DNA from: an uncultured Paracoccaceae bacterium
Lineage (GTDB): Bacteria; Pseudomonadota; Alphaproteobacteria; Rhodobacterales; Rhodobacteraceae
DNA: 64,000 nucleotides
Assembly (NCBI GenBank): GCA_947499715.1
Contig: CANMPL010000001.1
Span: 248,001-312,000 of the forward strand
Direction: 5' to 3'
Shown here: positions 1,284 through 18,752 of the stretch, piece after piece
Layout: each line of letters opens with the position of its first letter
Numbering within the stretch: position 1 is the first letter of the stretch
The notes under the pieces: model-generated
What the model was told of the DNA's origin: nothing
The model's input: the letters and a program-made list of their open reading frames with translations, nothing else
Database searches by the model: none
Position numbers and translations under genes: made by a program

Positions 1284-1294
1284 CACGCGACCCC

Positions 1295-2044
1295 CTAGAA
1301 GAACGGCTCTGGCGGCAGGCATCGCACCACCACCGCCGTGACGTTATCTTTGGCCCCGCGATCAAGGGTCTGGGCAATCAAATCGTTGCAAATCGACTGC
1401 GCCGTTTCCCCCCGCTGAAGGGCGGCGACGATATCGGCATCGCTGTTATGTTCCGTCAGCCCGTCAGAGCACAAAAGCAACATGTCGCCCTGTCGGATCT
1501 CACCGCTGACAACGTCGCAATTGGGTTCCTCTGACACGCCAATCGCGCGGGTGATGACGTTCTTGCGTGGCCAATTTTCGGCCTCTTCTTCGCCGATCAT
1601 ACCGGCATCGAGCAGTTCCTGCACTTCGGTATGGTCGCGGGTCAGCTGTTCAAGCGATCCGTTGCGCATCCGGTAGATCCGACTGTCCCCGGACCAGATG
1701 CAAGCATAGCTTTCTTCGTAGACCAAAAGCGCCACCAGCGTCGCGCCAACAGTGCCGCCGCCCAGCGAAATCGCATGTTCGCCAATCTTGTGATGCGCCC
1801 GGCCAAGCCGTTCCATAAAGCGGGCTTGCAGATCCCCGGCTGAGATTGAAAAGCCGACCGTCTCCATCTCTCCGGTGATGGTTTGGCTGGCGAAATCGCC
1901 CGCGTCATGGCCGCCCATGCCATCCGCCACGACCCAGACGCCGGATTCAGGGCGCACGAAATAGCTATCTTCGTTGTGGTCACGGACGCGGCCCGTGTCT
2001 GTTGCCGCCCCTGTGTCAAACAGGAAGAATTCAGTCTGCATCAA
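1295..2044 (-). CDS. pppA: PP2C-family Ser/Thr phosphatase, T6SS-associated (PppA/Stp-like)
   Basis: 249 aa; VRDHNEDSYF, VVADGMGGHDAGDFAS, SGDSRIYR, LLLCSDGLTEH and GAKDNVTAVVV are PP2C motifs. Confidence 0.92.
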   Translation of the reverse strand: MMQTEFFLFDTGAATDTGRVRDHNEDSYFVRPESGVWVVADGMGGHDAGDFASQTITGEMETVGFSISAGDLQARFMERLGRAHHKIGEHAISLGGGTVGATLVALLVYEESYACIWSGDSRIYRMRNGSLEQLTRDHTEVQELLDAGMIGEEEAENWPRKNVITRAIGVSEEPNCDVVSGEIRQGDMLLLCSDGLTEHNSDADIVAALQRGETAQSICNDLIAQTLDRGAKDNVTAVVVRCLPPEPFF

Positions 2045-2870
2045 TCGCCCCTTCGTCCGTCATCTGCGGCAGGACCACAGGCGCGACGGTGTTATCATTA
2101 TCTGCCATTGGTGGCACTGTTTTATCGGGTTCCGGGGCCATGGCCTGCGGTTGTTCATCAAGTGCCGGCATCGGGACGGCAGCCGGTGCGGTGGCCCGCA
2201 CCGCATCCGTCATCAGCCAGGCCAGGACCGGTGCATCAGGCAGGCCGCGCGTGACATGCACCGCCGCACCACCGGGGCCTTCACACCACAGATAGCTGCG
2301 GGTTGCCGCCGCACGCAGGTGATCGACACCGGCCACGTCACCCCACAGCCGGTCAAGGTCGCCATCGGCGCGGGCGGCCCAGAAATCTGGTTCCAGTTCT
2401 GTCGCCGGTGGCGGGAGCATGGCGGACACCGCACGATGCACATGTGCGGCATAGTCGCCTGCCCCGGTTGAGGGGTCGCGGGCATAGCTGCGCATTGCCT
2501 CTGTCAGGGCCACATAGATCGCTTGATCCCCCGATTGAACCGGGGCGGGTTGACTGGATCCGGCGACCGCAGCGGCCAATGGAAAGCGGCGACCAACGGT
2601 GTCACGCGATGGGGCCATCACGCCAAAGATCGGCGCGACCTCGCCGATCAGCCCTGCGCCGAACCAGAACCGGATCACCGGACTTGCATCGAACAACGGC
2701 CCCCAATCATTGCCCCAGCCATCGCGAATAGCGGGCATGACGTGGTGCAACCATTTTTCCAAAGTGTCTTGCGGTCCATCGGGCAGGCCATTGGTAACAA
2801 AATCGCCAAACGCGGGGTGTTTACCATAAAGGCCTACTGCGACGCCGTGATCCTCTGTCCCCTCCATCAT
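2031..2870 (-). CDS. tagF: TagF/ImpM-family T6SS-associated protein
   Basis: From the internal ATG at 2870 (ORF track starts at 2975, inside tssM): MMEGTEDHGVAVGLYGKHPAFGDFVTNGLP...W...GWGNDWGPLFDASPVIRFWFGAG...GVMAPSRDTVGRRFPL, typical of TagF. Confidence 0.85.
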   Translation of the reverse strand: MMEGTEDHGVAVGLYGKHPAFGDFVTNGLPDGPQDTLEKWLHHVMPAIRDGWGNDWGPLFDASPVIRFWFGAGLIGEVAPIFGVMAPSRDTVGRRFPLAAAVAGSSQPAPVQSGDQAIYVALTEAMRSYARDPSTGAGDYAAHVHRAVSAMLPPPATELEPDFWAARADGDLDRLWGDVAGVDHLRAAATRSYLWCEGPGGAAVHVTRGLPDAPVLAWLMTDAVRATAPAAVPMPALDEQPQAMAPEPDKTVPPMADNDNTVAPVVLPQMTDEGAIDAD

Positions 2871-2874
2871 GGCG

Positions 2875-5800
2875 TCAGTCCAGACTTTGCGGGCAGCTGA
2901 ATTCGCTGAGTTCCCGCATGGTAAAGGGGTTGGTGGCAGCGCTAAAGCCGAAGTCATAGCTGATCGAGCGGCCACCGATATTGAACGTCAACCGCTGCTG
3001 GCCGCCGTTGTCCTGAATCGACGCTGCACGCTTCATCAAACGCAGGATCGCCCAAGGGCCATCCTGAAAGCCGATGGCAGAGGTGCGGTCAAGCGATGGG
3101 AACAGCAGGATCGTGGCCGAGCCACCAGCGCCGGGCCAGTCAAAGGCTTTGGCCGGGTCGCCGGTGCGCGACAGCATGATCGCGCTGTTGATATCCAGCT
3201 GCGCCTGTTCGACAGAGGCATGGTTGCCCACGTGGCGCACGGTGATCTTGACCTCTGGCGCAGGCGTGCCTGCGGCAAAGAAGGCGCGGCGAATTTTCTC
3301 GGCACGGTCAAACTGGCGCAGGGTGGCGGGTGACAGGCGGTCGGACAATGGGCTGTTTGGGTCAACCGAAAGGCCGTCACCGGTGCGGATCACATGCGGT
3401 GAAAGGTAGGTGTTAAAGTAGCGGTCCATCGTGCCGCCGGGGCCAAAGAACTGCCCAAAGGTGGCGGGCGGCAGTTGCCGCGGCGTATCCGCAAAGGGGA
3501 AGAACGACGCGATTTCTTCGCGGCAGGTGAACGCGATTTCATTGGTCAGCGCGCGGTTCATTTCGGCCAGCGTGGCGTCAGACGCTTCGTTGCGGAAATC
3601 CTTTTCGGCATCGTTCACGAATTCGCGCAGATCGCCCGGCAGGCGGGAATTGTTGCGCGTGAGGTTCGACAGAAGCTGCGGCAGAAGGGCGGCCGACTGG
3701 CCGGGGTTTGACGACGCAAGCCGTAGGTTGTCGCGGATCGCCGCCAGATCAGCGAGCACGATGTCGATGGGGCGCTGGCCTTCGGCGCCTTCAAGCAGCA
3801 CATGCCAGTCGCGGAATTGTTCTTGGATCCGTTCCACCGGGCGCAGCGGGCCATCGGCGGCCCCGCTTACGCGGTTTTGGTTCTTGTTGTCGCGGGCGGC
3901 ATCCAGCAGGACCTTACCGGCCTTGTCCGACCGGCGACGCGCGCCATCAAGGAACACATTGCCAAGCGCACCTGCGATTCCGGCACCACCACCCTCGGCA
4001 GCGGCGGCTTCCGCCTCTTCCGCAGCGGCAGCGATACGTTCAAGTTCACGCATCAATTGGGTTTCGCCGTCCACGGCCTCGACCAGTTTCAAGATCGGGG
4101 ACGAAAACGGCGCAGAGGCGGCGGCAAGGATGTCATACTGCGGCTTGTCGGCGGACAGATTGGCCAGCTGGATGTTGTCGAACATCGCATACCACGCATC
4201 GCGGAAGTCTTGCCCATAGCGCGATTGCAGCGCCTGATCGAGGCCCCGCATCTGGTTGTCAAAGTTCACCAGATCGGCCTGATCGCCCAACACCCATTTG
4301 TCACGCTCGAGCGCGTCACGCACATCCAGAAGCTGGTCAAAGAAGAACGACCAATAACCTTCGTAGGTATAAAGCCCCGGCACGCCAACGGTCGACAGGT
4401 CAGCCCCGTCCTTGGTGATGAACACCAGATTGGCGTCATTGCCGGTGGATTGCACAAGATTGTAATCAATCAGCCCGGCAGTGCTGGCGCGGTCCGTAAT
4501 CAGCGCATAGGCCTGATCGGCCAGCGACATCTGTACGATAGCGGAACGTGCGGCGTTGACGGTTTCCTGATCAATCTCGACCTGAATATCGCGTGTGTCG
4601 TCGAGTTTGAGCATCGCATCCAGATGCGCGTTCAGCGCGTCGCGCTGGTTGATCTGGAAGGCGCCGGAATATTCCTCGCGCCAGACACTTTCAAACCATG
4701 CCTTGATTGCGGCGTCGTCCGTCTGGGGCGCTTGCCCGCCCAGCAGCATATAGACCTTGAGCGCGCGATAAATCTGCGCGGGTTCACCTGCGGCACGGAT
4801 CTGCGGCAGTTGCGTTTCCAGATCAAGGATCAACCGCGGGCGCAGCATTTGTTCCAGCGCATCAGCATAGGCGCTGTCGGTGGCGACGCTAAGCCGGTCG
4901 CGCTGTCCAAGGCCAAGACCTTCCCAAAAGGTCGGTTCCGTCGCGACGCCGTAACCGGCAGGCATATCGCGAAGCTGGTCAAGGTAAGGCAGGATGGGTT
5001 CAAGGCCCGGATCGCTGATCTCGGTCCGGGCGATTTCATCCTGTGCGGCGCGGGCGTATTTGCCGGTTTCTTCCTCGGCGTTGCCCAGCAGATTGTAGTT
5101 CTGCCAAAAGCTGAACCCGAAAACAGCCAAAAGGCCAACCGTGGCCAGAGAGATGGCAGAGAAGCCTAGCGTGCGCAAAATCGCCGTGCGGCGGACGGCG
5201 CGGGCGTCATGGCTGACCCAATCGCGTTCTTCAAAGATCACGCGCTTGAGAAGGTCATGGATGAAAAAGGACTTGCCCTGCCCCGACATAAACGCAGGCG
5301 CAAAGGCACCGCTGGCGTTGTCGGTCTGGGACATCGCACCCAGCACCTGGTCAATCGGCGTGCCCTCTTGCGTGCCAGAAGTAAAATAGAACCCCCGCAG
5401 AATGGCGTTGGTCTTGTGCTTGGAGGGCGCAAAGACGCGGCGCAGAAATTCGCTGACGTTTTCGCGCATCAGCGCCATCTGGCCGGGCAAGCCAAAGATC
5501 GCCACGCGGCTGATGCCATCGGGTTCTTCGGACAGACGGTCGATCAATTCGTCCGACAGACGGCTGACCAGCTTGTCAAATTCTGGGCCCACATCTTCGT
5601 GGGTCTGCGCCTTGCGGTCTTTGGTCTGAAACGTGACACCCCAAACGGATTTTCGGCGGTGCTGGCTAAAGCTCGAGAAATACTCGCGGAAGCCGCTGAT
5701 CAGGTCGGCCTTGGTAAAGAGGACATAGACGGGGAAATCGACCCGCAGTGCGTCGTGCAACTCGGCCAGACGGTCGCGCACGATATTGGCGTGTTCGGTC

Positions 5801-6480
5801 AATTGCTCATCGGTGGAGGTCATCATGTCCTCGGCCGAGAAGGCCAGCATGACGCCGTTGATCGGCTGGTTGGGCCGCGAGCGTTTCAGCAGGTTGAGGA
5901 ATGACGTCCAGCTTGCGCCGTCCGCCTCTGCGTCGCTGTCTTGCGTGGTGTAGCGGCCTGCGGTGTCGATCAGGATCGCATCTTCGGCAAACCACCAGTC
6001 GCAATAGCGCGTACCACCAAACCCTTCCATGCCGCCGTCTTCGTCACCGGCGACGGGAAATTCGATGCCGGAGTTCTTGAGCGCCGTGGTCTTGCCCGCG
6101 CCGGGTGGGCCAATGATGATGTACCACGGCAGATCATAAAGGTAGGTTGAGCCGCCGGACTTTTTCAGCCGCGCAAGGGCGGTGTTCATCTTTTCGGCCA
6201 GCACCTTGCCGTCGCCCGCTGGTTCCTTGACCAGCTCTTCTTCCATCTCGCGGGCAAGCTTGCGGCGTTTGCGCCATTTCAGGAATTGAACGATGAAGAT
6301 GATGCCCAAGAGCACACCGATCACGGTGGCGCGGAACCAGACGGCTTGGGTCAGCCACCACGGGATCATGCCAAAGCCGAACCAGATCGCCAGACACAGG
6401 CAGATCACCCCGATGATGATCGCGGGAATGCGCATCCACGGCTTCCATTTCAGAAAGCGGAATAGTGCGGTGAACCTCAA
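2875..6480 (-). CDS. tssM: T6SS membrane subunit TssM (IcmF family)
   Basis: 1201 aa; N-terminal TM segments, intact Walker A (GPPGAGKTT), IcmF-type C-terminal region. TTG start overlaps the tssL stop. Confidence 0.95.
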   Translation of the reverse strand: MRFTALFRFLKWKPWMRIPAIIIGVICLCLAIWFGFGMIPWWLTQAVWFRATVIGVLLGIIFIVQFLKWRKRRKLAREMEEELVKEPAGDGKVLAEKMNTALARLKKSGGSTYLYDLPWYIIIGPPGAGKTTALKNSGIEFPVAGDEDGGMEGFGGTRYCDWWFAEDAILIDTAGRYTTQDSDAEADGASWTSFLNLLKRSRPNQPINGVMLAFSAEDMMTSTDEQLTEHANIVRDRLAELHDALRVDFPVYVLFTKADLISGFREYFSSFSQHRRKSVWGVTFQTKDRKAQTHEDVGPEFDKLVSRLSDELIDRLSEEPDGISRVAIFGLPGQMALMRENVSEFLRRVFAPSKHKTNAILRGFYFTSGTQEGTPIDQVLGAMSQTDNASGAFAPAFMSGQGKSFFIHDLLKRVIFEERDWVSHDARAVRRTAILRTLGFSAISLATVGLLAVFGFSFWQNYNLLGNAEEETGKYARAAQDEIARTEISDPGLEPILPYLDQLRDMPAGYGVATEPTFWEGLGLGQRDRLSVATDSAYADALEQMLRPRLILDLETQLPQIRAAGEPAQIYRALKVYMLLGGQAPQTDDAAIKAWFESVWREEYSGAFQINQRDALNAHLDAMLKLDDTRDIQVEIDQETVNAARSAIVQMSLADQAYALITDRASTAGLIDYNLVQSTGNDANLVFITKDGADLSTVGVPGLYTYEGYWSFFFDQLLDVRDALERDKWVLGDQADLVNFDNQMRGLDQALQSRYGQDFRDAWYAMFDNIQLANLSADKPQYDILAAASAPFSSPILKLVEAVDGETQLMRELERIAAAAEEAEAAAAEGGGAGIAGALGNVFLDGARRRSDKAGKVLLDAARDNKNQNRVSGAADGPLRPVERIQEQFRDWHVLLEGAEGQRPIDIVLADLAAIRDNLRLASSNPGQSAALLPQLLSNLTRNNSRLPGDLREFVNDAEKDFRNEASDATLAEMNRALTNEIAFTCREEIASFFPFADTPRQLPPATFGQFFGPGGTMDRYFNTYLSPHVIRTGDGLSVDPNSPLSDRLSPATLRQFDRAEKIRRAFFAAGTPAPEVKITVRHVGNHASVEQAQLDINSAIMLSRTGDPAKAFDWPGAGGSATILLFPSLDRTSAIGFQDGPWAILRLMKRAASIQDNGGQQRLTFNIGGRSISYDFGFSAATNPFTMRELSEFSCPQSLD

Positions 6481-8027
6481 AACGTGCCCTCTTTCGCCAT
6501 CATGATCTCGACCCGGCGGTTCAGGGCGCGGCCCTCTGCGGTGCTGTTATCTGCGATTGGATCGGCTTCGCCTCGGCCTTCGATGCTCAGCCGGTCGGGG
6601 TTGTTCATCAGGTCATCCAGCACATCCTTGACGGCGGCGGCACGGCCAACGGACAGGTCAAGGTTGGTCTTATATAGGCCGCGGCCAGAAGGCTGGATGT
6701 CATCGGTATAGCCCAAGACCCGGATCGGCCCCTGTTCTGCATTCAGCGTATTGACGATATTTGCGGCAAGTTCTGCGAATTCGGGCCGCACAGTGGCGCT
6801 GCCAGAGCGGAAAAGCAGCGTGTTGCCGACCCGAATAAAGATAAACGCGCCCTTTTCGCCGACCTCGACCGACCCATCGGCAAGCTGCGGTGCAAGCGAG
6901 GCGCGAATGCGGTCAAGTTGGGTGTTATCAACGGGCGCCACAAAGGCCTGCACAGGCGCGGTGCGCACAAGGCTGATGTTGGCGGCATTTGGGTGCATGG
7001 TGAATAGTTGGCTGGCCAGCGCACCACCTTCGCGGTTGATATAGGTCGACATGCCCGCATAACCGGCCACAACGATCACCGCCGCGACGCTGGCCACAAT
7101 CCACATCGGCAACCCGCCAAAGCGCTTCTTGGCCGCCATCGGCACAGCGGCCCAGTTCACAGCGATGTCTTCATCGGGGCGCGGCTTCACCCGGCGCAAA
7201 GTTTCATAGATGGCAGAGCGGATGCGGGCGAGTTCAACCGCACCGTTGGGCATGGTGCGATATTGCCCCTCGAACCCAAGTGACAGGCAGACCAGCATCA
7301 GTTCCAGCAGGCCATAACGTTGCGCGGGCGCCTGCATCGCCTTTTCAGCCTCTTGGAAAAAGCCCACACCGGAATCGCGCTTTTGGAAGAAGCGGGCGAC
7401 CATGGAATATTGCAGCCAGGTGCTTTTGTCGGTGCCCGGCAGGTTTTGCACGATGTCATCGGCGGTGCCGCACAGGACATAGGTGCCGATCTGCGCCTCT
7501 TGCGGGTCAGCGCCTTCTTGCACGGCGTTGCGTTCAAATTGCTCAATCTCGCGGACGACGTGGTTCATCAGCGGTTCGGCCTGCATTTCAACCATGCCGG
7601 TGCGCAACCGACCAAAGAGGATCAACAGGTTTGCGGCTGCGGCCAAAAGCGGGTTGGACGGACCGCCCTTGCCAAGGCCGGTGGCGCGCAAGGCCTCTTC
7701 CAGTGCGATGCGCGGGGTTGCAACGCCTTGCGGCTGTTGCGGTTGACCAGACGGCACGTCGGGGAAAAACCCTTGCGGCTGTGCCGCAGGTGCCTGACCC
7801 GGCGCTGGCTGCGCGGGCGGCAGCGCACCACCCAGCCATGTGTTGCCATCTTGGGGACCCGGTGCAGGTGTGCCAAAGCCACCCCCCGGTGCGGGACGCT
7901 GTGGCGGCAAAGCACCGCCAATGACAGTGCGGTCAGCGCTTGGCGCGCCAGGGGCCGCACGCGGCGGCTGGGCTGGCTGCTGCGGCAGCTTGCCCCCAAA
8001 GACCGTCTTGTCATCGTCCTTTGACAT
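6477..8027 (-). CDS. tssL: T6SS protein TssL (DotU/IcmH) with C-terminal OmpA-like peptidoglycan-binding domain
   Basis: 516 aa; DotU region (NPLLAAAANLLILFGRLR...), a TM helix, then an OmpA-like domain (LLFRSGSATVRPEF...GYTDD...LNRRVEIMM). Confidence 0.95.
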   Translation of the reverse strand: MSKDDDKTVFGGKLPQQPAQPPRAAPGAPSADRTVIGGALPPQRPAPGGGFGTPAPGPQDGNTWLGGALPPAQPAPGQAPAAQPQGFFPDVPSGQPQQPQGVATPRIALEEALRATGLGKGGPSNPLLAAAANLLILFGRLRTGMVEMQAEPLMNHVVREIEQFERNAVQEGADPQEAQIGTYVLCGTADDIVQNLPGTDKSTWLQYSMVARFFQKRDSGVGFFQEAEKAMQAPAQRYGLLELMLVCLSLGFEGQYRTMPNGAVELARIRSAIYETLRRVKPRPDEDIAVNWAAVPMAAKKRFGGLPMWIVASVAAVIVVAGYAGMSTYINREGGALASQLFTMHPNAANISLVRTAPVQAFVAPVDNTQLDRIRASLAPQLADGSVEVGEKGAFIFIRVGNTLLFRSGSATVRPEFAELAANIVNTLNAEQGPIRVLGYTDDIQPSGRGLYKTNLDLSVGRAAAVKDVLDDLMNNPDRLSIEGRGEADPIADNSTAEGRALNRRVEIMMAKEGTF

Positions 8028-9358
8028 CAGTTTTTCTCCGGTATGGCCCAGAGTTCCAGTTTCAGTTCAGGCCAGTCGCCCGCAAAGTGCATCCCGATAG
8101 CGGGTGCGGTCGAAAATTCCTGCCACATGGGCGTGTTTTTCTCGAGCAGGAAGTAGACGTTGGTGCTGACCACCCTGATCTGACGCGGCGGATTTGGCAA
8201 ATGCACAAGGCTGATGCCGGGCAGGTTGTTGGTCACGATCTCGCGCATGCGGGTGTTGGGGCCGACTTTGCACAGTTCGGGGAACTGGCTTTGGACCTGG
8301 GTCAGCGGCTTGGCGCTTTCGACCTCGATCACAAAGGTTGCGTCGCGGAACAGGTTGCGGTCGCTGACCTCTGCCAGATAGGAATTCTGGCGGACCTGGT
8401 TCAGGTTCAGGCGCACCGCACGGCCCACATCGCGCGACAGGGCCCGCTGGATGTCGGACACGACGGGACCAAAGGTTTCCTTGGGGTCGCCATGGTCATA
8501 TTGGCCGTAATCACGCGCCATACGTTCGCCTTGGTCAAAGGTTGCAAGCTCGCCCGCCAGCGCGATCAGATGTTCATACAGCCGCTCGGGATGCACCGCC
8601 CGGCTGGTCGCCATGTGTCGCAACACGCCGATATTGCGGTTCAGCGTCATCAGCATCAGGTAATCCGTCGCCTGCATCCCACCGCCCGCAGAGGGGTCAG
8701 AGGCATAGCGCGCAAGGCTTTCCAGCTTTGCCTCGATCCAGCCGATCACGCGGGTCAGATAGCCGACCGTCACCGGATGCACCGCGATGATCAGCGCCGG
8801 TGGCGGGACGGTATCATCCAGCGAAATGACACCATCGCGGACTTCGTTGATGCGGGCAATGCGCAAGCATTGATAGCCCGGCTTGGCCGATTTGCGCACG
8901 TCAAGTTCAAGACGCGGCACAGCAGTTTCAATCAGATGTTCCACCCGCGCGTTTGAGGCGTTATCCGCGACAGTGGCAGAGGAAAGCGCATAGCGCGTCG
9001 TTGCCGCCTCTGGCCCGACGCCAACGTCTTGGCCGTTTTGGGACATATCGGGCAGGGTCAGCCAGATAAAAAGGCCCTTGGCGTCTTCGGGCACATCAAC
9101 CGGTGTCGGCAGATCGCCCGCATTGGGTGCGTCAAAGGGTGTCCCATCCGGCATGATGCCAGTCACGGTGCGCAAACCAAAGCGGCCCTGCTGGGCCATG
9201 TCACGATCCACGGTCATTTCCGAAATGCCCCATGGATAGGGCGTAATCACATCGGTGCGGGCTTGAATCAGCTTTTCGACGTACCGATCACTTTGCTGTA
9301 GGTGTTGCGGCTGCAGAAACAGACCTTCTTTCCAAGCAACCTTGCTAAACCACGACAT
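8027..9358 (-). CDS. tssK: T6SS baseplate subunit TssK
   Basis: Starts MSWFSKVAWKEGLFLQPQHLQQSDRYVEKLI, the conserved TssK N-terminus. ORF track start at 9427 is an upstream extension. Confidence 0.95.
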   Translation of the reverse strand: MSWFSKVAWKEGLFLQPQHLQQSDRYVEKLIQARTDVITPYPWGISEMTVDRDMAQQGRFGLRTVTGIMPDGTPFDAPNAGDLPTPVDVPEDAKGLFIWLTLPDMSQNGQDVGVGPEAATTRYALSSATVADNASNARVEHLIETAVPRLELDVRKSAKPGYQCLRIARINEVRDGVISLDDTVPPPALIIAVHPVTVGYLTRVIGWIEAKLESLARYASDPSAGGGMQATDYLMLMTLNRNIGVLRHMATSRAVHPERLYEHLIALAGELATFDQGERMARDYGQYDHGDPKETFGPVVSDIQRALSRDVGRAVRLNLNQVRQNSYLAEVSDRNLFRDATFVIEVESAKPLTQVQSQFPELCKVGPNTRMREIVTNNLPGISLVHLPNPPRQIRVVSTNVYFLLEKNTPMWQEFSTAPAIGMHFAGDWPELKLELWAIPEKN

Positions 9359-9465
9359 TGCAATCCAATCATCTTCAATAGGCTGTGCGTTCCGCGCAAG
9401 TCTGGAACCTTGGCCCTGCGCGGTCAAGCCTTGGGCCGCGCAAAAAGCGGTCCCTTCAATATGTT

Positions 9466-9493
9466 AAGGGCCGGGTTTTTCTGCCCGGCCCTT
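9466..9493. other. 10-bp-stem hairpin between the autotransporter stop and tssK
   Basis: aagggccggg (9466-9475) / cccggccctt (9484-9493). No U-tract follows on the minus strand. Confidence 0.55.
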
Positions 9494-9501
9494 GAACCTG
9501 A

Positions 9502-12500
9502 TTAGAACTGGAAGCGCGCCTGTGCCGTCACACCCCAGCTATCAAGCCGGTCGCTGACACGGAAGTCGCCACGCACAGAGGCGTTGAATTGCTTGACCGC
9601 ACCAAATTCGCCCGGCTGCAAAATCCGCACATAGTTCAGACCGGCGCTGATTTCGCCATATGCCCCAAGGTTCTCGGAAGAGATCCGCGTGACGTCACCG
9701 TTGTCAGACCGGGTAAAGGTCGACGTCGGATTTTCAGCAAAGTCCTTGTAAAGCGTCAGCGTTCCGAATTGCGTCAGTGCAGAGACGCCATCATCACCGA
9801 CAATCGTGCGGGTCACGGTACCACCTGCAAAGCCGATCTGACTGTCAAAGTCGTCGATCTGCACCACACCGCGACCAACAAAGTTGATCGGGTCGGTTGA
9901 GATCTGGCTGTAAGCAAAACCAACGGTCGGCACAAAGGTCAGACCCGTTTCCTGAATCGGCAACGAATAGGAGACCGCACCAGACAAGGTTTTGCCGTCG
10001 GACGTGAATTTCTCGTCCGTCAGACCAAGTGACGCGCCGCCGGTCGCTTCGACGTTGGTGGCGGTGTAGTCGGTCTTTTCGATCCGGTACTGCAGATCAA
10101 CGGCCAGACGATCCCGCACCGCGGCAACGTAAACGCCACCATAGGCTTGGGTAAAGTCAACGTCAGTCACCGATGTCTGGATGTCAGACAGACCCGTGTC
10201 AGAGCTGGTATCGGGGGCAAAGATCGGCTGATTAGATTTACCGATGTTCACACCACCGATGGCACCAAATGCGACGTCCCAACCATTGTAGAAGCCGTTA
10301 AAGCAGGCATAGTCCCCGCCCAGCTGCACACCGTAGTAGTCAGCCGAGATGCTGCTGTCGAAAGGTTCTGTCGTGCCATTGACCTGGTCGATTTCACCTG
10401 TTGCATCAGCCGAACCGCCAATGCCGCGTGCCCAAAGGCCTGCACCACATGGATCTTCGTCTTCAAATGCCAGACCGCTGACGAAGGGGCTGGAAGGACG
10501 GTTGATCACCGAACCGATCAGCGACTGCGCCAGAACGATTGTGCCGGCGATGGACGAGATACCTTGGTCAAGCGCATCAAAGACCACCAGATCGCCTGCG
10601 CTGTTCTGGGTCAGGCCGTAGACGATGATACCATCGGTCAGCGACAGATCAGACGCGTCCGGCAGGCCATTTGCAATTGCGTTGATCGTGTCCTGACCCG
10701 TCGCCGCATCCAGCACGACGACATCTTCGTCCTGCTCTCCGCCTGCGCCAAGCACGTTAAAGTTCAGAACCACATCACCCGTCACAAAGGCCCCGGGGGA
10801 CATGACAATCGTATCAGCCGTCCCCGTGGTGCCGCTCAGGTCGATATCAAGGTCAAAGGTCTGCGCACCAAGGTCGCCGCCGATATTCACCCGGTCAGAC
10901 GTCGCGCTGTTGCTCGCAAGGTTCACACGACCGCCACCGGTCAGACCATCTGCAAAGCTGAGCGTGCCTGTTCCGATGATGACGCCACTGTTAGAGAACG
11001 CGCCTTCGACCATGCTGCCATCCGCGAATGTCGCGTTGCCTGTGTTGGTCCCAAGGCCCGAGGTGCGCAGTGTTGCACCGGCGCCCAGCGTCAGATCGCC
11101 ATTGCTGGTCAGATTCCCGGCCTGCAGTGTCGCACCGTCGTTCACAGTCAGAACCGTGTCGCCATCCGTGGTGATATCACCGCTGACAGAGAACAGATCA
11201 CCATCGACGACAAGCTGCCCAAGACCGCTGAGCGCAAGATCAGCAGGGCCAGCGCCGTCCGTCAGGATCCGTGTCGTGCCAGCCGAAGAGATCAGCGTTT
11301 GCGAAGTCACATCGCCTTCCAGCGTTGCATCTGTCAGATCGACAGTCGCACCGGCGGCAAAGCTCATGTTACCGGCAAGCGTGCCATCGTTGATGGTCAG
11401 CGTGCTTGGCGCGCCAAAGTCGGCGTCACCGGTTGAGGCAAGCACAAAGCCATTCTCGATCGTGATTGTGCCAAGGTTCGAAATATAGCCCGCTTCGATG
11501 TTACGGTCGTCAAGTTCAAGCACACCTGTTCGAGTGTTTTCAAAAATCCCGATCCGCGAGGTCGGTCCGCTCAGTGTATAGGCCCGGTCGTTGCTGATTG
11601 TCTTGGCACGCGCGTCGCCCGGATCCGTGTTGATGGTGCCCGTGTTGGTCAGCGTGCCGGTCACATCGCCGAAGTAGTCAACCAAACCACGATTGATCAA
11701 GTTGCCGTCGATGCTGCCATCAAGCCGGACATAGCCGGCCTCAAGATTGCGCACAAAGCCGGTAATCTCTTGACCGGAGTTGATGAAGAAATCGCCGGAA
11801 CGGTTGATCATGTTTGTCGTGATGTCTGCGTTCAGGTTCACAACACCACCGTTGTTGACAATGCTATTTCCAACCGAGCCGCCGTTTAGGTTCAATTCTC
11901 CGCCAGTCAGATTTGAGGTCCCATTGATGGAACCTGCGTCATGATCCACCGTGCCGGTGCCGCCGACCACAAGGCCGTTGGTCATAGATCCGTTGTTCGT
12001 CAACGTGCCGCCATTTACGGTCACAAGACCGCCAAGTTCACCGTTGTTAGTTGTTGTGCCGCTGATTTGGGTCAACTTGCCATTCAATTGCCCTGCCGCA
12101 CCGATAGCAACGCTTGCTCCAACGTTGCGGATATCAGCTATGACGCTTGCGTTGACATTCAGGTCGCCTGAAACTGAGCGCACCTCTTCAGTGAAAGTAC
12201 CGCCGTTCATATCAAGCTGACCGGTACCCGTGAGGGTGGTCGCACCATTGACGCGCGAATTGGCGCCTGTGCTGACAAGGTTGTCAGAGATCGCGAGATC
12301 ACCAAACAGCTTACCATTTAGCTGCAACGTCCCACCACTATTGGTGAAGTCACCAAAAACTGAACGGGCCGTGCCGATCGTGAGCGCAATCCCGTTATTG
12401 CGAATATCCGCGTAAGTGTCAGCGGCAATGGTCAGGCTGCCAGCATTTGCGACGATACCGCCGTCAAAGCGGCCACCGTTTGCGATGAGTGTGCCACCTG

Positions 12501-15500
12501 TCAAAAGCGTTGTTTGGCCCAGCGTGTTCGCGCCGGAATTCTGGCTCCAGCTGTTGCCGCGGACTTTCAGGGTGTCTGTCACGACGCCGTTGTTGTTCGC
12601 CACGCCACCGTTGTGGGTCACGCCGCCGATCCAGCGCGCGCCTGCGTCAATTGTCAGGGTGCTGGCATTTGTAAGCGTCCCGGTCGTGTTGCCGGCAACA
12701 GTCAGCGTTCCTGCGTTGTTGCGTGTCGCGCCGTCGATCCGGCCGCCATCAGCAACGACGTCACCACCGTTGTTGGTCAGGTCCAGATTGACCCGGCCCT
12801 CGGCGTTGTATGTGCCCCCAGAAACAGTGACGCTATCCGTCACAAGACCTTCCTGTGTGGTTGTGCCGGAAAGGCTGTTCACACTGCCGTTCACTTGACC
12901 TGCACCATTGATGTTCAAGGTGCCACCTGCGTTTGTCAGAGTCGCGACGGTGATTTCACCATCGATGTCAGTCTGACCAGCGTTCGTGCGCAACTGCCCC
13001 GCAAAAGTGCCGCCTGACGCTGCAATGTTCCCACCTGCGTTGATCACATCAGCATTCAGCATCCCACCGGTTGGTGTGAATGTGCCGCCTGCGTTCACGG
13101 TGACCTTTTCTGTAATCGTGCCACTGCTGCTGACGTTGCCACCGCTGATTTTCACGGTGCCATCCAGCGTGCCTTGGTTATTAATTGTGCCGCTGGTATT
13201 CACGACAGCGCCCGTCAGGGTTTGGCTGCCCTGCACAGTGACTGCCGCGCCAACATTGGTCAGGGCCGCGGTCGTATCGCCATCGACGATGATCGTGCCA
13301 CCTTGCCCGCGCAAACCGCCCGAGAATGCGGTGCCGCCCGCATTCAGCTGACCACCCAAGACAGTAGTTTGGCCCAGAATTTCGCCGCTGTTGGCATCCA
13401 TGTTGCCCGCGTTCAGGCGCACGGTGCTGTTCATGTCACCTGCGTTGGTGACGGAACCGCCAGTAATGACCAATGCACCCGTCAGCGTGCCAAGGTTGTT
13501 CATGTCGCCGCCGATGTTATCGACTTTGCCGGTCAGCGTTTCGCCATTTTGGATCGTCAAAAGCCCTGCCGTATTGCGCACGTCAACCGTGGTCGCGCCA
13601 GCGATATTCAGCGCACCACCCTGGTTCAGGATCTCTTGGTTGAACGTGCCGCCCTTGGCGTTCACGACACCGCCGTCAAGTATGAGCTTGCCCTGAAGCG
13701 TGCTGCCAGATTCCGCATCCAGCACGCCCGATCCATCCACCGTCACATTGCCGATGATGTCGCCGTTGTTGGTGAAGACATCTGCAATTGCGTCTGTGTC
13801 ATCGCCCGACAGCATCAGGGTGCCCATCAGAGTCCCATCATTGATGGTGGCACCCTTGTTGCTGACGTAATTGTGGGTCCAAGTTGTCGCAGCATCAATG
13901 TTGACGGTCCCGCCTTCATTGGTGACGGCAGTCGTTGTGGCCGGGACGTTGAAAAACACGTTGCCGCTATTGTTGACGATACCACCCGTAAAGGTGCCAC
14001 CGTTGTCGTTGACCGTGCCGCCGTTGTTTGTCACCAACCCGGCAACTTCACCGTTCAATTCATTATTCAACACACCAGAGCCTGAGACCGCGACCGTGTC
14101 GTCGATCAGACCTGTCGCAAGCACATTGATGTCGCCACCTGACAAGGTCACCGGACCCGCAATGGTGCCGATGACATTGGTGTCACCATCCGTGCTGCCA
14201 TAAGCGCCCGTCAAGGTGAACGTGTCGGTTATAGTGACCGTACCGCCTGCATTGGTGACGGGTGCGGTTGTATCGGCCAACAGATCAACCGTGCCCGATT
14301 GGTTCAGGATACCGGTGGTAAAGCCACCACCCAGCAGATTGATGTCGCCACCTTGATTGGTAACAAGACCTGTGGCGGTGCCTCCATTCGCATTAAAAAT
14401 ACCACCACCATTCACAAGGGCTGTGCCCGTGAGAGTGTTGTTGTTGTCGAACGTCCCACCATTCACCGTGACAGTACCAATGATTTCACCGTCGTTGGTG
14501 GTTGTACCATCTTCGTTGATCACGCCACCCGTCAGAACTCCTGTGCCGGTGATATTCAGAGTTCCCGCGGTCATATCGTCGCCGTTGGTCACGGTCGCGC
14601 TGGCAGCGCCGTCAACTGTGGTGGTGCCGGCTTTGTTCAAGACACCTGCGGTGACGGTACCACCGCTAAGTGTAATCTTGCTTTCGACAGCATTGGTCGA
14701 AACAGTGCCTGTGATTGTGCCACCTTCGACCACAAGCATGCCCATACCAGTGACGTCGATCGCGCCTGTCACGTCGCCATCATTGGTAAAGACGCCGCCC
14801 CCTACATCAGCCGTTCCGACGTAGATACCGTTGTTGTTTACTGCGCCTGCGGTTTGGGTGATGTCGCCCGTCAAGGTATTGCCACCGACGATCAGCAACT
14901 CACCGCCATTGACGTTCACATCAACTTCGCGGTCTGCATCAGTGATGGGATCAGAGCCGTGACGTACCCGTACAAGTCCCGTGGTGATATCAATCTGCCC
15001 GGTGCCGCCACCTTCCGAAAAAGTGCCGCCCCGCAAGACCAGCTCTCCGCCGTCAACAGTGACCACGTCCTGGATCTCGCCTTCCAACGCAAGGAATAGG
15101 CCACCATTCACTTCAACCTCACCACCCCAGTCCCCACGGTTGGTCAGCTGGCCACCTTGCAGGTCGAGTGTGCTGACGGCGTCGGTATTATCGCCCGTAA
15201 GCTGCAAAGTGCCATCACCAGAACTATTGATCGTAAAGGTACGGTCGTCTTTGCCAGCCGAAGAGAGGTTAGTGGAGATCTGTGCAATGTCGTCAACGTT
15301 CGTCACGTCGATGGACATTCCTGCAGGAATTGCATTCCCGACCTTGCCCTTTGCAACAATCTCGGGATTTACGGCGCCATCGGCGGGGCGGATCACATAG
15401 CCAGTTACGTCAAAGGTGATCGAGCGTGGGCGCACAGGCACTTCGACATCGACCGTGACACCGGTCGCGCCAAAAATAACGTCATCACCGCGGTTGTTTT

Positions 15501-15753
15501 CGAAAGAAAGCTCGGACCCCGTGCCATCATCATCGTCATTCCAGTTTTCGGTCGACGTGTTCCATACACCACCGTCTACAGTGCCGATTACACCGCCAGG
15601 CGTTTCATTGTCGTAGTAGATCGTATCGGCAGCAGCCGCGCTTGGCAGCGAACCTGCCAGAAACGCTGTTGTTAGGACCAATGCCGAAGAACCCAGCAAA
15701 CGTGCTTTGACGGGCGAACGGGAGGGCTGAAATGAAAACAGGGCACGCATCAC
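9502..15753 (-). CDS. Giant autotransporter-like outer-membrane protein with repetitive beta-helix-like passenger
   Basis: 2083 aa; signal-peptide-like N-terminus (LLGSSALVLTTAFLAGSLPSAAAA), about 1,600 aa of Gly/Asn/Thr-rich repeats, barrel-like C-terminus ending ...GVTAQARFQF with terminal Phe. Start is GTG 15753 or ATG 15750. Confidence 0.85.
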   Translation of the reverse strand: MMRALFSFQPSRSPVKARLLGSSALVLTTAFLAGSLPSAAAADTIYYDNETPGGVIGTVDGGVWNTSTENWNDDDDGTGSELSFENNRGDDVIFGATGVTVDVEVPVRPRSITFDVTGYVIRPADGAVNPEIVAKGKVGNAIPAGMSIDVTNVDDIAQISTNLSSAGKDDRTFTINSSGDGTLQLTGDNTDAVSTLDLQGGQLTNRGDWGGEVEVNGGLFLALEGEIQDVVTVDGGELVLRGGTFSEGGGTGQIDITTGLVRVRHGSDPITDADREVDVNVNGGELLIVGGNTLTGDITQTAGAVNNNGIYVGTADVGGGVFTNDGDVTGAIDVTGMGMLVVEGGTITGTVSTNAVESKITLSGGTVTAGVLNKAGTTTVDGAASATVTNGDDMTAGTLNITGTGVLTGGVINEDGTTTNDGEIIGTVTVNGGTFDNNNTLTGTALVNGGGIFNANGGTATGLVTNQGGDINLLGGGFTTGILNQSGTVDLLADTTAPVTNAGGTVTITDTFTLTGAYGSTDGDTNVIGTIAGPVTLSGGDINVLATGLIDDTVAVSGSGVLNNELNGEVAGLVTNNGGTVNDNGGTFTGGIVNNSGNVFFNVPATTTAVTNEGGTVNIDAATTWTHNYVSNKGATINDGTLMGTLMLSGDDTDAIADVFTNNGDIIGNVTVDGSGVLDAESGSTLQGKLILDGGVVNAKGGTFNQEILNQGGALNIAGATTVDVRNTAGLLTIQNGETLTGKVDNIGGDMNNLGTLTGALVITGGSVTNAGDMNSTVRLNAGNMDANSGEILGQTTVLGGQLNAGGTAFSGGLRGQGGTIIVDGDTTAALTNVGAAVTVQGSQTLTGAVVNTSGTINNQGTLDGTVKISGGNVSSSGTITEKVTVNAGGTFTPTGGMLNADVINAGGNIAASGGTFAGQLRTNAGQTDIDGEITVATLTNAGGTLNINGAGQVNGSVNSLSGTTTQEGLVTDSVTVSGGTYNAEGRVNLDLTNNGGDVVADGGRIDGATRNNAGTLTVAGNTTGTLTNASTLTIDAGARWIGGVTHNGGVANNNGVVTDTLKVRGNSWSQNSGANTLGQTTLLTGGTLIANGGRFDGGIVANAGSLTIAADTYADIRNNGIALTIGTARSVFGDFTNSGGTLQLNGKLFGDLAISDNLVSTGANSRVNGATTLTGTGQLDMNGGTFTEEVRSVSGDLNVNASVIADIRNVGASVAIGAAGQLNGKLTQISGTTTNNGELGGLVTVNGGTLTNNGSMTNGLVVGGTGTVDHDAGSINGTSNLTGGELNLNGGSVGNSIVNNGGVVNLNADITTNMINRSGDFFINSGQEITGFVRNLEAGYVRLDGSIDGNLINRGLVDYFGDVTGTLTNTGTINTDPGDARAKTISNDRAYTLSGPTSRIGIFENTRTGVLELDDRNIEAGYISNLGTITIENGFVLASTGDADFGAPSTLTINDGTLAGNMSFAAGATVDLTDATLEGDVTSQTLISSAGTTRILTDGAGPADLALSGLGQLVVDGDLFSVSGDITTDGDTVLTVNDGATLQAGNLTSNGDLTLGAGATLRTSGLGTNTGNATFADGSMVEGAFSNSGVIIGTGTLSFADGLTGGGRVNLASNSATSDRVNIGGDLGAQTFDLDIDLSGTTGTADTIVMSPGAFVTGDVVLNFNVLGAGGEQDEDVVVLDAATGQDTINAIANGLPDASDLSLTDGIIVYGLTQNSAGDLVVFDALDQGISSIAGTIVLAQSLIGSVINRPSSPFVSGLAFEDEDPCGAGLWARGIGGSADATGEIDQVNGTTEPFDSSISADYYGVQLGGDYACFNGFYNGWDVAFGAIGGVNIGKSNQPIFAPDTSSDTGLSDIQTSVTDVDFTQAYGGVYVAAVRDRLAVDLQYRIEKTDYTATNVEATGGASLGLTDEKFTSDGKTLSGAVSYSLPIQETGLTFVPTVGFAYSQISTDPINFVGRGVVQIDDFDSQIGFAGGTVTRTIVGDDGVSALTQFGTLTLYKDFAENPTSTFTRSDNGDVTRISSENLGAYGEISAGLNYVRILQPGEFGAVKQFNASVRGDFRVSDRLDSWGVTAQARFQF

Positions 15754-15880
15754 GCAAATCCTTTGGTAAAATAACCGTTAACGCGAACCGAACCACGGTA
15801 AAGCGCTGCAATCAACAGGAAACATTGGTTAATGGCGCTTTGACTTCAGGGTGTTGTCGTCAACGCAACGCGAAATTTAC

Positions 15881-16108
15881 CTACACCTCAAAGGCGATTA
15901 ACCTGAGAATCGCTTTCGTCATTGGGACATACGCCCCGTTTGCAACGACGCATAAGTTTTGTAGCGCGACGGGCATCTGCCCCAACAATCCCGGCTCATA
16001 GGGCAATTTGTTGATGAAGCGACGCAGTCGAACCGGCAGGCGCGCACCTGATTCCAACTGCAAAACCTCGCTTTGGGTCATGTGCTGCAATGCCATCCCA
16101 CGCGCCAT
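15881..16108 (-). CDS. Small hypothetical protein (75 aa) directly after vgrG
   Basis: ATG lies 2 nt after the vgrG stop on the same strand, suggesting translational coupling. No family recognised. Confidence 0.5.
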   Translation of the reverse strand: MARGMALQHMTQSEVLQLESGARLPVRLRRFINKLPYEPGLLGQMPVALQNLCVVANGAYVPMTKAILRLIAFEV

Positions 16109-16110
16109 TT

Positions 16111-18144
16111 TCAGTTAATCTTGACCATTTTGCCAAGCACTTCGACCAAGGCGCTCGCGTTCAATCCGATCTTGGTGCCATTGACCTGAATGTCGCCGCT
16201 GGATGTCATCTCGATCCGGCTTTTGCCCACGGTGATCGCGATCTTGTCGCCCGCAGTGATGTTAATGGTCTTGCCCGCCCGCAATTCATAATCGTCACCC
16301 ACGACCGAAGTTTTGTTGCGGCGAACGTTTTCGGCGTGATTTTCGCCAATGGTCTGGGTTTTGTTGGTGTCCACCGAAAGGTTCAGCGCCCCTTCACCGG
16401 GGTTGCTTCCGGCCTTGCCGAAGGTCTCGGGCAGATCCGGCAGCCCTTCTGGCGCCTTTGACGCGCCCGCCGGGGTAACCGTGTTCTTGTTGGCGGGCCC
16501 CACGCGAATATCCATATTGCCGTCGACAACCTGCAACATGTTGTTGCCAACCTCGCTGGCCTTATCGTGGCCTACGCTTTCGACCTTGTTGACGTTGACC
16601 CGCTCTGACTGGTTGTTTTCAACCTTGGCGTTCCGGTCCTTTGAGGCGTGGACATAGATTTCTTCCGCGCCGGTTTTGTCTTCGAACCGAAGCTCGTTAA
16701 ATCCCTTACCCTGATGGGTCTTCGTCTTGAACGTGCTGCGGGTTTTGTGATCTGGCAAGTCGTAGGGCACGTCGTTTTTGCCGTTGTAGACACAGCCGGT
16801 CACAAGCGGTTTGTCAGGGTCCCCTTCAAGGAATTCGACCACCACCTCCATGCCGACGCGCGGCACGATCATCCCGCCAAAACCGCTGCCAGCCCAGTTC
16901 TGGCTTACCCGGCAGCGCATGGAATTGGCCCCGGCGAGGTCCCAATGGAATGTCACGATGATGCGGCCGAAATCGTCGCAATCAATCTCTCCCTCACCCG
17001 TGACGACAGCCGTTTGCGGGCCGTGAACCAAGGCCAAGGGTGTCTTGCGCGCGGCAGCATAGGGTTCGTCAACCGGCACAAAGCTGTAGTGCGCCTTGAA
17101 AATCAGCCCGGTCTCTGCATCGCCGGAGGCATAGGACTGATCGGCAAAAAAGTGCGTCGCCGACAAACAAAGATAGCTGTCGTCCACGACCTGACCCGCG
17201 GCTTGCCCGGTGAGCGTGATCTTCATACCCGCGCCCAAACTGACGCAATCACCCTCTGCGGTGTGGCGATGATCCTTGCCGCGCTCTTGCGCGACACGCG
17301 TGGCGATCAGATCCTTGCCGTCCGCCTCCGATGTATAATCGCCAGGATAGTCGAACGCCTCTATCGCGCCTTCGGAATAAGTTGCGTCGCCCGTGCGCTC
17401 CACGTCCATTTTCGCGGTCGGTGACTTGAAATTGAAATCCTTAAGCATGACCGCCCCGGTGGTCATATGCCGCGCCTTTTGCCACTGCCAAAAATGTTCT
17501 TCATCAGCGTCGTGGCTGGCGGTGACATCCAGAAACGGGCGGTTCTTGCCGGGTGCATCGTCAAAGCGGTCGACGGCATCTGTGATGACCATCGTGTGCG
17601 ATCCCATGGCATGTTTGAAGTGAAACGAAAGGCCGAAACGTTCCATCATGCGGCGGGCAAATGCCAGATCGCTTTCGCGGTACTGCACGGTATATTCAAG
17701 GTCGGGGTAGCTTTTGGTCAGGCGCATCTCGACCGCTGGATCGCCAAGGCCGGCATAGGCGTTGAAAAGCTCTTCCAGGATCCCGACAACCGATTTGTTG
17801 TGAAAAATCCGCTGGTTCCGGCGCTGTTCAAGCAAGGCAAACCACGGGCGCAGCGTCAGGCGAAAGACTGCGCGATCATCCGTTTCGCCAACCCAGCGCC
17901 CGGCAGTGACGATCCCGTCAAAATAGCGGTCGCCGTGATCCTTTGTGGTGATCGCAACGGTGGCGTGGGTGCCAAGAAGGCTATCAAGTTTCGCGTCCGT
18001 ATCGGCACATTGTGCCTCGACCTCGTATTCAAACAGGTCATCGACGTGGTCGGTGCCGTTGAACTGCCGCAGTTGCAGCGCATCGCGGCCCAGCGCCGTT
18101 ATCACCTGTGCGGCCCGCATCACTTGAGAGGTCTTCGCTACCAT
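16111..18144 (-). CDS. vgrG: T6SS spike protein VgrG (TssI)
   Basis: 677 aa; FEYEVEAQC, WFALLEQRRNQRIFHNKSV, MRCRVSQNWAGSGFGGMIVPRVGMEVVVEFLEGDPDKPLVTGCVYNG. Confidence 0.96.
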   Translation of the reverse strand: MVAKTSQVMRAAQVITALGRDALQLRQFNGTDHVDDLFEYEVEAQCADTDAKLDSLLGTHATVAITTKDHGDRYFDGIVTAGRWVGETDDRAVFRLTLRPWFALLEQRRNQRIFHNKSVVGILEELFNAYAGLGDPAVEMRLTKSYPDLEYTVQYRESDLAFARRMMERFGLSFHFKHAMGSHTMVITDAVDRFDDAPGKNRPFLDVTASHDADEEHFWQWQKARHMTTGAVMLKDFNFKSPTAKMDVERTGDATYSEGAIEAFDYPGDYTSEADGKDLIATRVAQERGKDHRHTAEGDCVSLGAGMKITLTGQAAGQVVDDSYLCLSATHFFADQSYASGDAETGLIFKAHYSFVPVDEPYAAARKTPLALVHGPQTAVVTGEGEIDCDDFGRIIVTFHWDLAGANSMRCRVSQNWAGSGFGGMIVPRVGMEVVVEFLEGDPDKPLVTGCVYNGKNDVPYDLPDHKTRSTFKTKTHQGKGFNELRFEDKTGAEEIYVHASKDRNAKVENNQSERVNVNKVESVGHDKASEVGNNMLQVVDGNMDIRVGPANKNTVTPAGASKAPEGLPDLPETFGKAGSNPGEGALNLSVDTNKTQTIGENHAENVRRNKTSVVGDDYELRAGKTINITAGDKIAITVGKSRIEMTSSGDIQVNGTKIGLNASALVEVLGKMVKIN

Positions 18145-18169: not shown

Positions 18170-18589
18170 TCAAATGCACGTCTGGCGGGGGTCCATAAAC
18201 AGAAGCCGCCCGATCGTGTTGCCGGGGCCGTGCGGCCCGGCGCAGTTCATTTCATAAAGGTGGTTGTTGCGGATCAATTCCCGCCCGCCGACCATCACCG
18301 TCACATCGTTTGACATCGGACGGCACCAGCCACGGTTCACGTTGGATTTAATGCCGCCAAGGTTGCCCGGCTCGTCGCCCATCACCTTGTTGGTGCGCGA
18401 CGCCATGTTGAACGCCTCTTGATTGGTGATCTTCACGTCCGGCACCGTCTGCGTCGCCCAATCCAACCGCGACACGATCATGTAAGGGATTGGTACCACC
18501 GCAGAGCCTACGGGCGTTTTGCAGACATCTGGTGCCATGCATATGATGGTCGCGTTAGCACCTTGTTTGCGGGCGGCAGAGTTGAGCAT
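18170..18589 (-). CDS. PAAR-like protein (DUF4150 type), T6SS spike tip candidate
   Basis: From the internal ATG: MLNSAARKQGANATIICMAPDVCKTPVGSAVVPIPYMIV...KVMGDEPGNLGGIKSNVNRG...VGGRELIRNNHLYEMNC; immediately upstream of vgrG. Confidence 0.82.
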   Translation of the reverse strand: MLNSAARKQGANATIICMAPDVCKTPVGSAVVPIPYMIVSRLDWATQTVPDVKITNQEAFNMASRTNKVMGDEPGNLGGIKSNVNRGWCRPMSNDVTVMVGGRELIRNNHLYEMNCAGPHGPGNTIGRLLFMDPRQTCI

Positions 18590-18752
18590 TTGGGGTCCAG
18601 TCGTATTGCGTTTGTTGCATCCACAATAATCGCTGACGGCCCTGTCCGGGGCTTGCCGTATCCAAAACGATGCCCCGCGAATCCCTGTCAGGCCTTGACC
18701 ACAACGCCCGACCACCCCTTATAGGTAGGCGCGCATTGGGAATACGCTTGCC

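Follow-up and report, generated by a model that had tools for sequence, protein, structure and literature searches.

Gene content of the locus

We analysed a window of 64,000 nucleotides from an uncultured Paracoccaceae bacterium (assembly GCA_947499715.1, contig CANMPL010000001.1, positions 248,001 to 312,000), in which a gene for a very large autotransporter stands within part of a type VI secretion system (T6SS) cluster. The genes run on the minus strand in the order PAAR, vgrG, autotransporter gene, tssK, tssL, tssM, tagF, pppA and ppkA (Table 1). The second half-cluster, consisting of tssB, tssC, hcp, tssE, tssF, tssG and tssH, lies outside the window, to its left, and is encoded on the plus strand; an FHA-domain gene immediately precedes tssB. 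Between the two T6SS halves are genes for ExbB, two ExbD-like proteins and a TonB-like protein, as well as M23 peptidase and caspase-domain genes (at L001:10236-14279 on the minus strand; the caspase domain is of the Peptidase_C14 type, and the M23 peptidase also carries an SLT domain).

The open reading frame at 9502-15753 contains 2,083 codons on the minus strand. Its start is best placed at the ATG at 15750, which is the start position in congeners, and both the start and the end of the protein are conserved in five congeners. A chance open frame was rejected, since six congeneric copies are found in the same place. The reading frame, its homologues and the AlphaFold models bore out the original prediction of a 2,083-amino-acid protein with a signal peptide, a repetitive passenger and a C-terminal barrel, as well as its placement between vgrG and tssK on one strand, which is the minus strand. 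The tssK start was assigned to the ATG rather than to the TTG at 9427.

Judged from its sequence and predicted structure, the protein is a type Va autotransporter. The window protein matched no Pfam or NCBIfam family, PF03797 included, and its identity was therefore taken from homologues and fold; a PF03797 search of the source genome likewise gave no match. Among 46 homologous beta-domains, 14 match PF03797, and the C-terminal 384 residues of the window protein share 41% identity with the beta-domain of one PF03797-matching protein, which is 4,001 amino acids long. An AlphaFold model built from the 46 homologues consists of a helix and a 12-strand barrel (pLDDT 84.6, pTM 0.82), for which the best PDB matches were EspP, EstA, AIDA-I, Hbp, BrkA and NalP (E to 2e-15). 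The beta-domain ends in ARFQF, and a conserved QSLIGSVINRPSSPFVSG motif spans the alpha-helical linker and extends beyond it. The only cysteines of the protein, C1769 and C1817, are located in the barrel, are both invariant across the family and possibly form a disulfide.

The signal peptide, read by eye as AFLAGSLPSAAAA/DTIYY, is conserved in position in the congeners. No enzyme domain was recognised in the passenger, the N-terminal 700 residues of which were modelled as a beta-solenoid with a mean pLDDT of 82, and one homologue contains 11 PATR repeat stretches. Whole proteins of the family are about 800-3,500 amino acids long in the relatives, and the passenger in the window accounts for about 1,700. 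Within the genus, identities are 45-65% for the passenger, 70-89% for the barrel and 92-98% for TssK, such that the passenger diverges much faster than the barrel or TssK, as expected of a surface recognition element. The protein was also considered as a T6SS effector; this was rejected because no toxin domain was found and because the protein has its own type V secretion route.

Table 1. Features of the autotransporter locus, in window coordinates unless another contig or locus is named.
Feature	Position	Strand	Remarks
PAAR-like spike tip (Tox-PAAR-like)	18170..18715	minus
vgrG	16111..18144	minus
Probable lipase-gene remnant	15975..16019	minus	45 nt, 80% identical, E 3e-4
Candidate autotransporter promoter region	15754..15870	minus	upstream of the autotransporter gene; 117 bp share 89% identity with one congener
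Type Va autotransporter	9502..15750	minus	2,082 aa from likely ATG 15750; GTG at 15753; stop 9502-9504
Signal peptide	15628..15750	minus	about residues 2-42 of P0001; cleavage near SAAAA/D, by eye
Passenger	10564..15627	minus	repetitive Gly/Thr/Asn-rich beta-solenoid, Cys-free
Alpha-helical linker	10504..10566	minus	residues 1730-1750; precedes barrel
12-strand beta-barrel	9505..10449	minus	residues 1769-2083; AlphaFold
GC-rich hairpin GGGCCGGG-N8-CCCGGCCC	9468..9491	minus	just past the autotransporter stop; terminator-like, weak T tail
Promoter-like element TTGACC-N17-CAGACT	9399..9427	minus	69 bp before tssK ATG
tssK (baseplate)	8027..9358	minus	ATG at 9358
tssL	6477..8027	minus	C-terminal OmpA-like domain
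tssM (IcmF family)	2875..6480	minus
tagF	2031..2975	minus
pppA	1295..2044	minus	PP2C-type phosphatase
ppkA, 5' part	1..1286	minus	Ser/Thr kinase, about 875 aa; continues past window to G000:C1:246656
ExbB, ExbD, second ExbD-like, TonB-like	L001:15725-18564 = G000:C1:243725-246564	plus	beside ppkA, left of window

Recurrence and co-inheritance with tssK

In each of the five further species of the genus that were examined, the autotransporter gene adjoins tssK. A search that was blind to the T6SS, using the barrel only against GTDB contigs, identified 55 loci, all in Alphaproteobacteria and nearly all labelled Rhodobacterales. At 42 of the 55 loci tssK follows on the same strand, 23-233 bp after the end of the autotransporter gene, and at four more (in Litoreibacter and one metagenome-assembled genome) the two are separated solely by inserted genes, which gives 46 of 55. 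The rest comprise one locus in a rearranged T6SS cluster, six beside PppA-PpkA without adjacent tssK, tssL and tssM, and two elsewhere.

In a family-wide set of 397 genomes, with roughly one genome for each genus, 22 of 33 autotransporter barrels were encoded within 1.2 kb upstream of tssK. The gene was present upstream of 22 of the 31 tssK genes in one score class and of none of the 74 others (Fisher 8e-16; the genomes in this test are not independent, and each autotransporter has a chance of about 0.0002 of being placed in this way). The TssK groups were initially cut by Pfam score after the data had been seen, and the clade was later supported by a tree; the 22/31 count is conservative, since G278, which falls within the score band, has an identity of only 29%. 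Beyond the family, 385 genomes of the class yielded only weak partial barrel matches; one plasmid match carries the label Martelella.

Mantel correlations among the barrel, TssK and PppA distances ranged from 0.72 to 0.84, the value for barrel versus TssK being 0.84, and the TssK tree fits a single gain of the autotransporter at the base of a supported clade followed by nested losses. By these sequence comparisons, the autotransporter gene has long stood next to tssK in a single T6SS lineage without TssJ, where it has mostly been passed on vertically. A local insertion in a single genome was rejected on the basis of the congeners, the T6SS-blind search and the tree, and the earlier picture of a gene inserted among T6SS genes was wrong; the accompanying guess that the association recurs in this lineage is strongly supported by the 42/55 loci and by the 22/31 versus 0/74 comparison.

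Two annotated plasmids, one from Leisingera sp. S132 and one from Paracoccus aminophilus, have the same gene order, and on both the autotransporter is labelled 'hypothetical protein', as it is in most public records. One genome with both the autotransporter and the T6SS (G318:C10, L121) carries a second autotransporter of the same barrel family, 829 amino acids in size, away from the T6SS genes.

Flanking intergenic regions

The gap between vgrG and the autotransporter gene is only 357 bp in the window. In the congeners (L050-L053), a Lipase_3-type putative effector gene and an ankyrin-repeat putative immunity gene are located between the two; the window contains neither, and its strain appears to have lost this pair. 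An open reading frame of 75 amino acids in the gap was dropped from consideration, being found in the window only.

On the other side, the 143-bp gap between the autotransporter gene and tssK contains a GC-rich hairpin and a promoter-like element, and a single operon of the two genes was not favoured for this reason. Similar hairpins, some followed by T runs, are present in the gap in other genera. The full promoter-like element was found in 10 of 43 such gaps and in none of the shuffled sequences, and the TTGA[CT]C hexamer in 26 of 43 as compared to 2.3 in shuffles, in a set where relatives are not independent. A generic scan for promoters and terminators gave no more hits than in shuffles. 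In Litoreibacter (L061, L083) the gap is occupied by a four-gene insert that resembles a Tle1-like effector (DUF2235-type, by motif) with duplicated exported small proteins.

Position in the tssJ slot

TssJ (PF12790) was undetected in all eight autotransporter-bearing genomes tested, nor was it detected in four genomes from the main T6SS group without an autotransporter. It is encoded directly upstream of tssK in G036, G014 and G051 as well as in G009, the closest outgroup of the autotransporter clade, and the autotransporter gene occupies the slot that tssJ holds in this outgroup. Since G009 keeps tssJ in the slot, the gain of the autotransporter and the loss of tssJ were placed on the same stem. 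Loss of tssJ also occurs without an autotransporter, as neither of the two is present in the other large T6SS group, in G277 or in G033. The arrangement marks a T6SS lineage in which a gene for an outer-membrane barrel took the place of the tssJ gene.

Autotransporters retained with PppA and PpkA

In Szabonella, Pseudorhodobacter, G205, Roseivivax sediminis and two further genomes, the autotransporter gene is followed by genes for PppA and PpkA, without tssK, tssL or tssM in between. These orphans represent at least two lineages, with Szabonella, Pseudorhodobacter and G205 forming one nested clade, and several of the loci also carry ExbB, ExbD, TonB-like and caspase-domain genes. Of the nine genomes in the family sample with an orphan autotransporter, seven carry another T6SS, in most cases at a different place (Fisher 3e-5). 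Neither TssK nor TssC was detected in two autotransporter-bearing genomes, the Roseivivax sediminis draft (G425) and G429, and Roseivivax sediminis keeps PppA, PpkA and an FHA protein beside the autotransporter. Because of these orphan loci, the sequence data suggest that the tie of the autotransporter to the kinase/phosphatase module is as close as, or closer than, its tie to the T6SS apparatus.

The TonB-like protein encoded beside ppkA has one transmembrane segment, a proline-rich part and a C-terminal domain, for which hhalign showed homology to PpkA's periplasmic domain (99.3%, E 1.5e-20). The N-terminus of TssL contains the motifs DKTVFGG and DRTVIGG, which are candidate phospho-Thr sites, and the N-termini of both TssL and PpkA contain repeated D(K/R)TVxGG / DRTVIEP motifs that resemble phospho-Thr/FHA docking sites.

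Interpretation

In interpreting the locus we counted as established the gene identity, the barrel fold, the recurrence, the mostly vertical co-inheritance with tssK, the position in the tssJ slot and the retention with PppA and PpkA; surface display, adhesion, prey docking and co-regulation we infer. Rather than being a chance insertion, the autotransporter probably serves the T6SS as a partner in docking or contact sensing, and a contact role shared by the two is plausible. The reading that we tentatively favour, at little short of an even chance given sequence comparisons and structure models, is that of a T6SS-linked docking adhesin of a TssJ-less Rhodobacterales lineage. It draws on the barrel and beta-solenoid models, the 42/55 loci, the 22/31 versus 0/74 comparison, the Mantel r of 0.84 and the divergence of the passenger, and also on the precedent of TasL in Vibrio fischeri (see below) and the other T6SS in 7/9 genomes with orphans. 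The Sec pathway and the beta-barrel assembly machinery (BAM) would place the barrel in the outer membrane, from where the passenger would extend outward and hold neighbouring cells against the envelope within reach of the T6SS. The protein would be made under the same conditions as the tssK/TagF/PppA/PpkA half-cluster, but probably from a promoter of its own. The choice of partner would lie with the fast-changing passenger, and the conserved barrel would keep the protein at the surface.

Several observations weigh against docking. The passenger model gave no significant Foldseek match to the PDB, so that no solved adhesin was matched significantly, although the best non-significant matches include Ag43 and TibA. 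The autotransporter of Roseivivax, found where TssK and TssC were not detected, points to a useful role without killing, or to decay. The original prediction had named T6SS relatives without the gene, together with independent transcription, among the signs of an incidental association: three close T6SS loci (L046, L106 and L108) do lack it at tssK, and the hairpin and promoter-like element suggest that the autotransporter gene and tssK are on separate transcripts, independent transcription being predicted from these elements. The same gap elements, the nested losses and the T6SS-free retention in Roseivivax would all fit an incidental neighbour, captured a single time next to an ancestral T6SS cluster and inherited there ever since, which has a promoter of its own and an adhesive role unrelated to the T6SS. 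We nevertheless consider this improbable, since effectors, immunity genes and flanks turn over while the order of autotransporter and tssK holds down to barrel identities of about 35-40%, and since the orphans adjoin the T6SS kinase and phosphatase rather than being located elsewhere, mostly in genomes with another T6SS.

Another function that the slot might suggest is that of an anchor: with TssJ lost, the barrel would have taken over from this lipoprotein and would hold TssM at the outer membrane. The 8/8 genomes in which TssJ was undetected and the exact coincidence with the tssJ slot of the closest outgroup speak for such an anchor, and TssJ-less T6SSs with substitute parts exist in Acinetobacter (PMC10564176). 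It is nonetheless very unlikely, given that the other large T6SS group, G277 and G033 are without both TssJ and an autotransporter at tssK, that orphan autotransporters persist without TssM nearby and that TssL has an OmpA-like domain of its own. An unlikely explanation, though a stronger one than the two preceding, is that the autotransporter senses contact, serving as the outer arm of a trans-envelope chain that sets the PpkA/PppA/Fha threonine-phosphorylation switch and licenses T6SS assembly. Binding by the autotransporter, or envelope stress, would act on the periplasmic domains of PpkA and of the ExbB/ExbD-driven TonB-like protein, and the target of phosphorylation would perhaps be TssL, at DKTVFGG/DRTVIGG. 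The chain would resemble TagQRST, which works upstream of PpkA in Pseudomonas, and in Agrobacterium the target of PpkA is TssL (PMC3953482). Contact sensing would account for the persistence of autotransporter, PppA and PpkA without adjacent tssK, tssL and tssM in at least two branches, several with ExbB/ExbD/TonB-like and caspase-like genes, for their retention with FHA in Roseivivax, where TssK and TssC were not detected, and for the periplasmic domain common to PpkA and the TonB-like protein. Against it, we know of no type Va barrel that acts as a signal transducer, the barrel has no direct link to either PpkA or the TonB-like protein, and the association with ExbBD/TonB was seen at individual loci. 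The broader proposition that the autotransporter, PpkA, PppA, Fha and TonB-like/ExbB/ExbD form one surface-to-kinase module that triggers the T6SS and can outlive its loss is doubtful and a little harder to credit; if true, the autotransporter would be the outer trigger of the PpkA pathway.

How T6SS-bearing cells choose and hold their targets, and which outside event switches on PpkA/PppA, are open questions, and few surface factors are known. The docking adhesin proposed here is a conserved and mostly unannotated candidate for such a factor in many marine and soil Rhodobacterales, some of which have their T6SS on plasmids, and natural relatives without the autotransporter or without the T6SS provide ready controls.

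Comparison with known systems

A literature search, subscription papers not covered, turned up no description of an autotransporter next to tssK in Rhodobacterales, which is weak evidence of absence; the tssJ-slot position, the orphan loci with PppA and PpkA, the hairpin and promoter-like element in the gap and the loss of the lipase pair are new points. The T6SSs described in roseobacters (PMC9515649) belong to the same host family, and their T6SS1 clusters are likewise without tssJ; that study stresses a TssBC-like fusion and mentions no autotransporter. TssJ/SciN (PF12790) is, like the autotransporter, an outer-membrane protein encoded immediately upstream of tssK, but it differs in fold and size, and other TssJ-less systems in the family have no autotransporter there. 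TagQRST of Pseudomonas consists of envelope proteins tied to the threonine-phosphorylation switch, to which the autotransporter is linked by gene neighbourhood alone.

The closest parallel in proposed function is TasL, a putative lipoprotein of >380 kDa encoded on the T6SS2 island of Vibrio fischeri, which mediates target-specific contact for T6SS killing (PMC9040878). Both are very large surface-type proteins encoded at a T6SS, and the likeness would be one of functional analogy only: TasL is a putative lipoprotein, and its neighbours are transcribed in other directions (PMC9040878). In architecture, the autotransporter resembles the type Va proteins AIDA-I, Ag43 and EspP (PF03797), with which it shares the signal peptide, beta-solenoid passenger, helical linker and 12-strand barrel, whereas it is set apart by a beta-domain too diverged for Pfam, by two family-invariant cysteines and by a gene that is linked to the T6SS.

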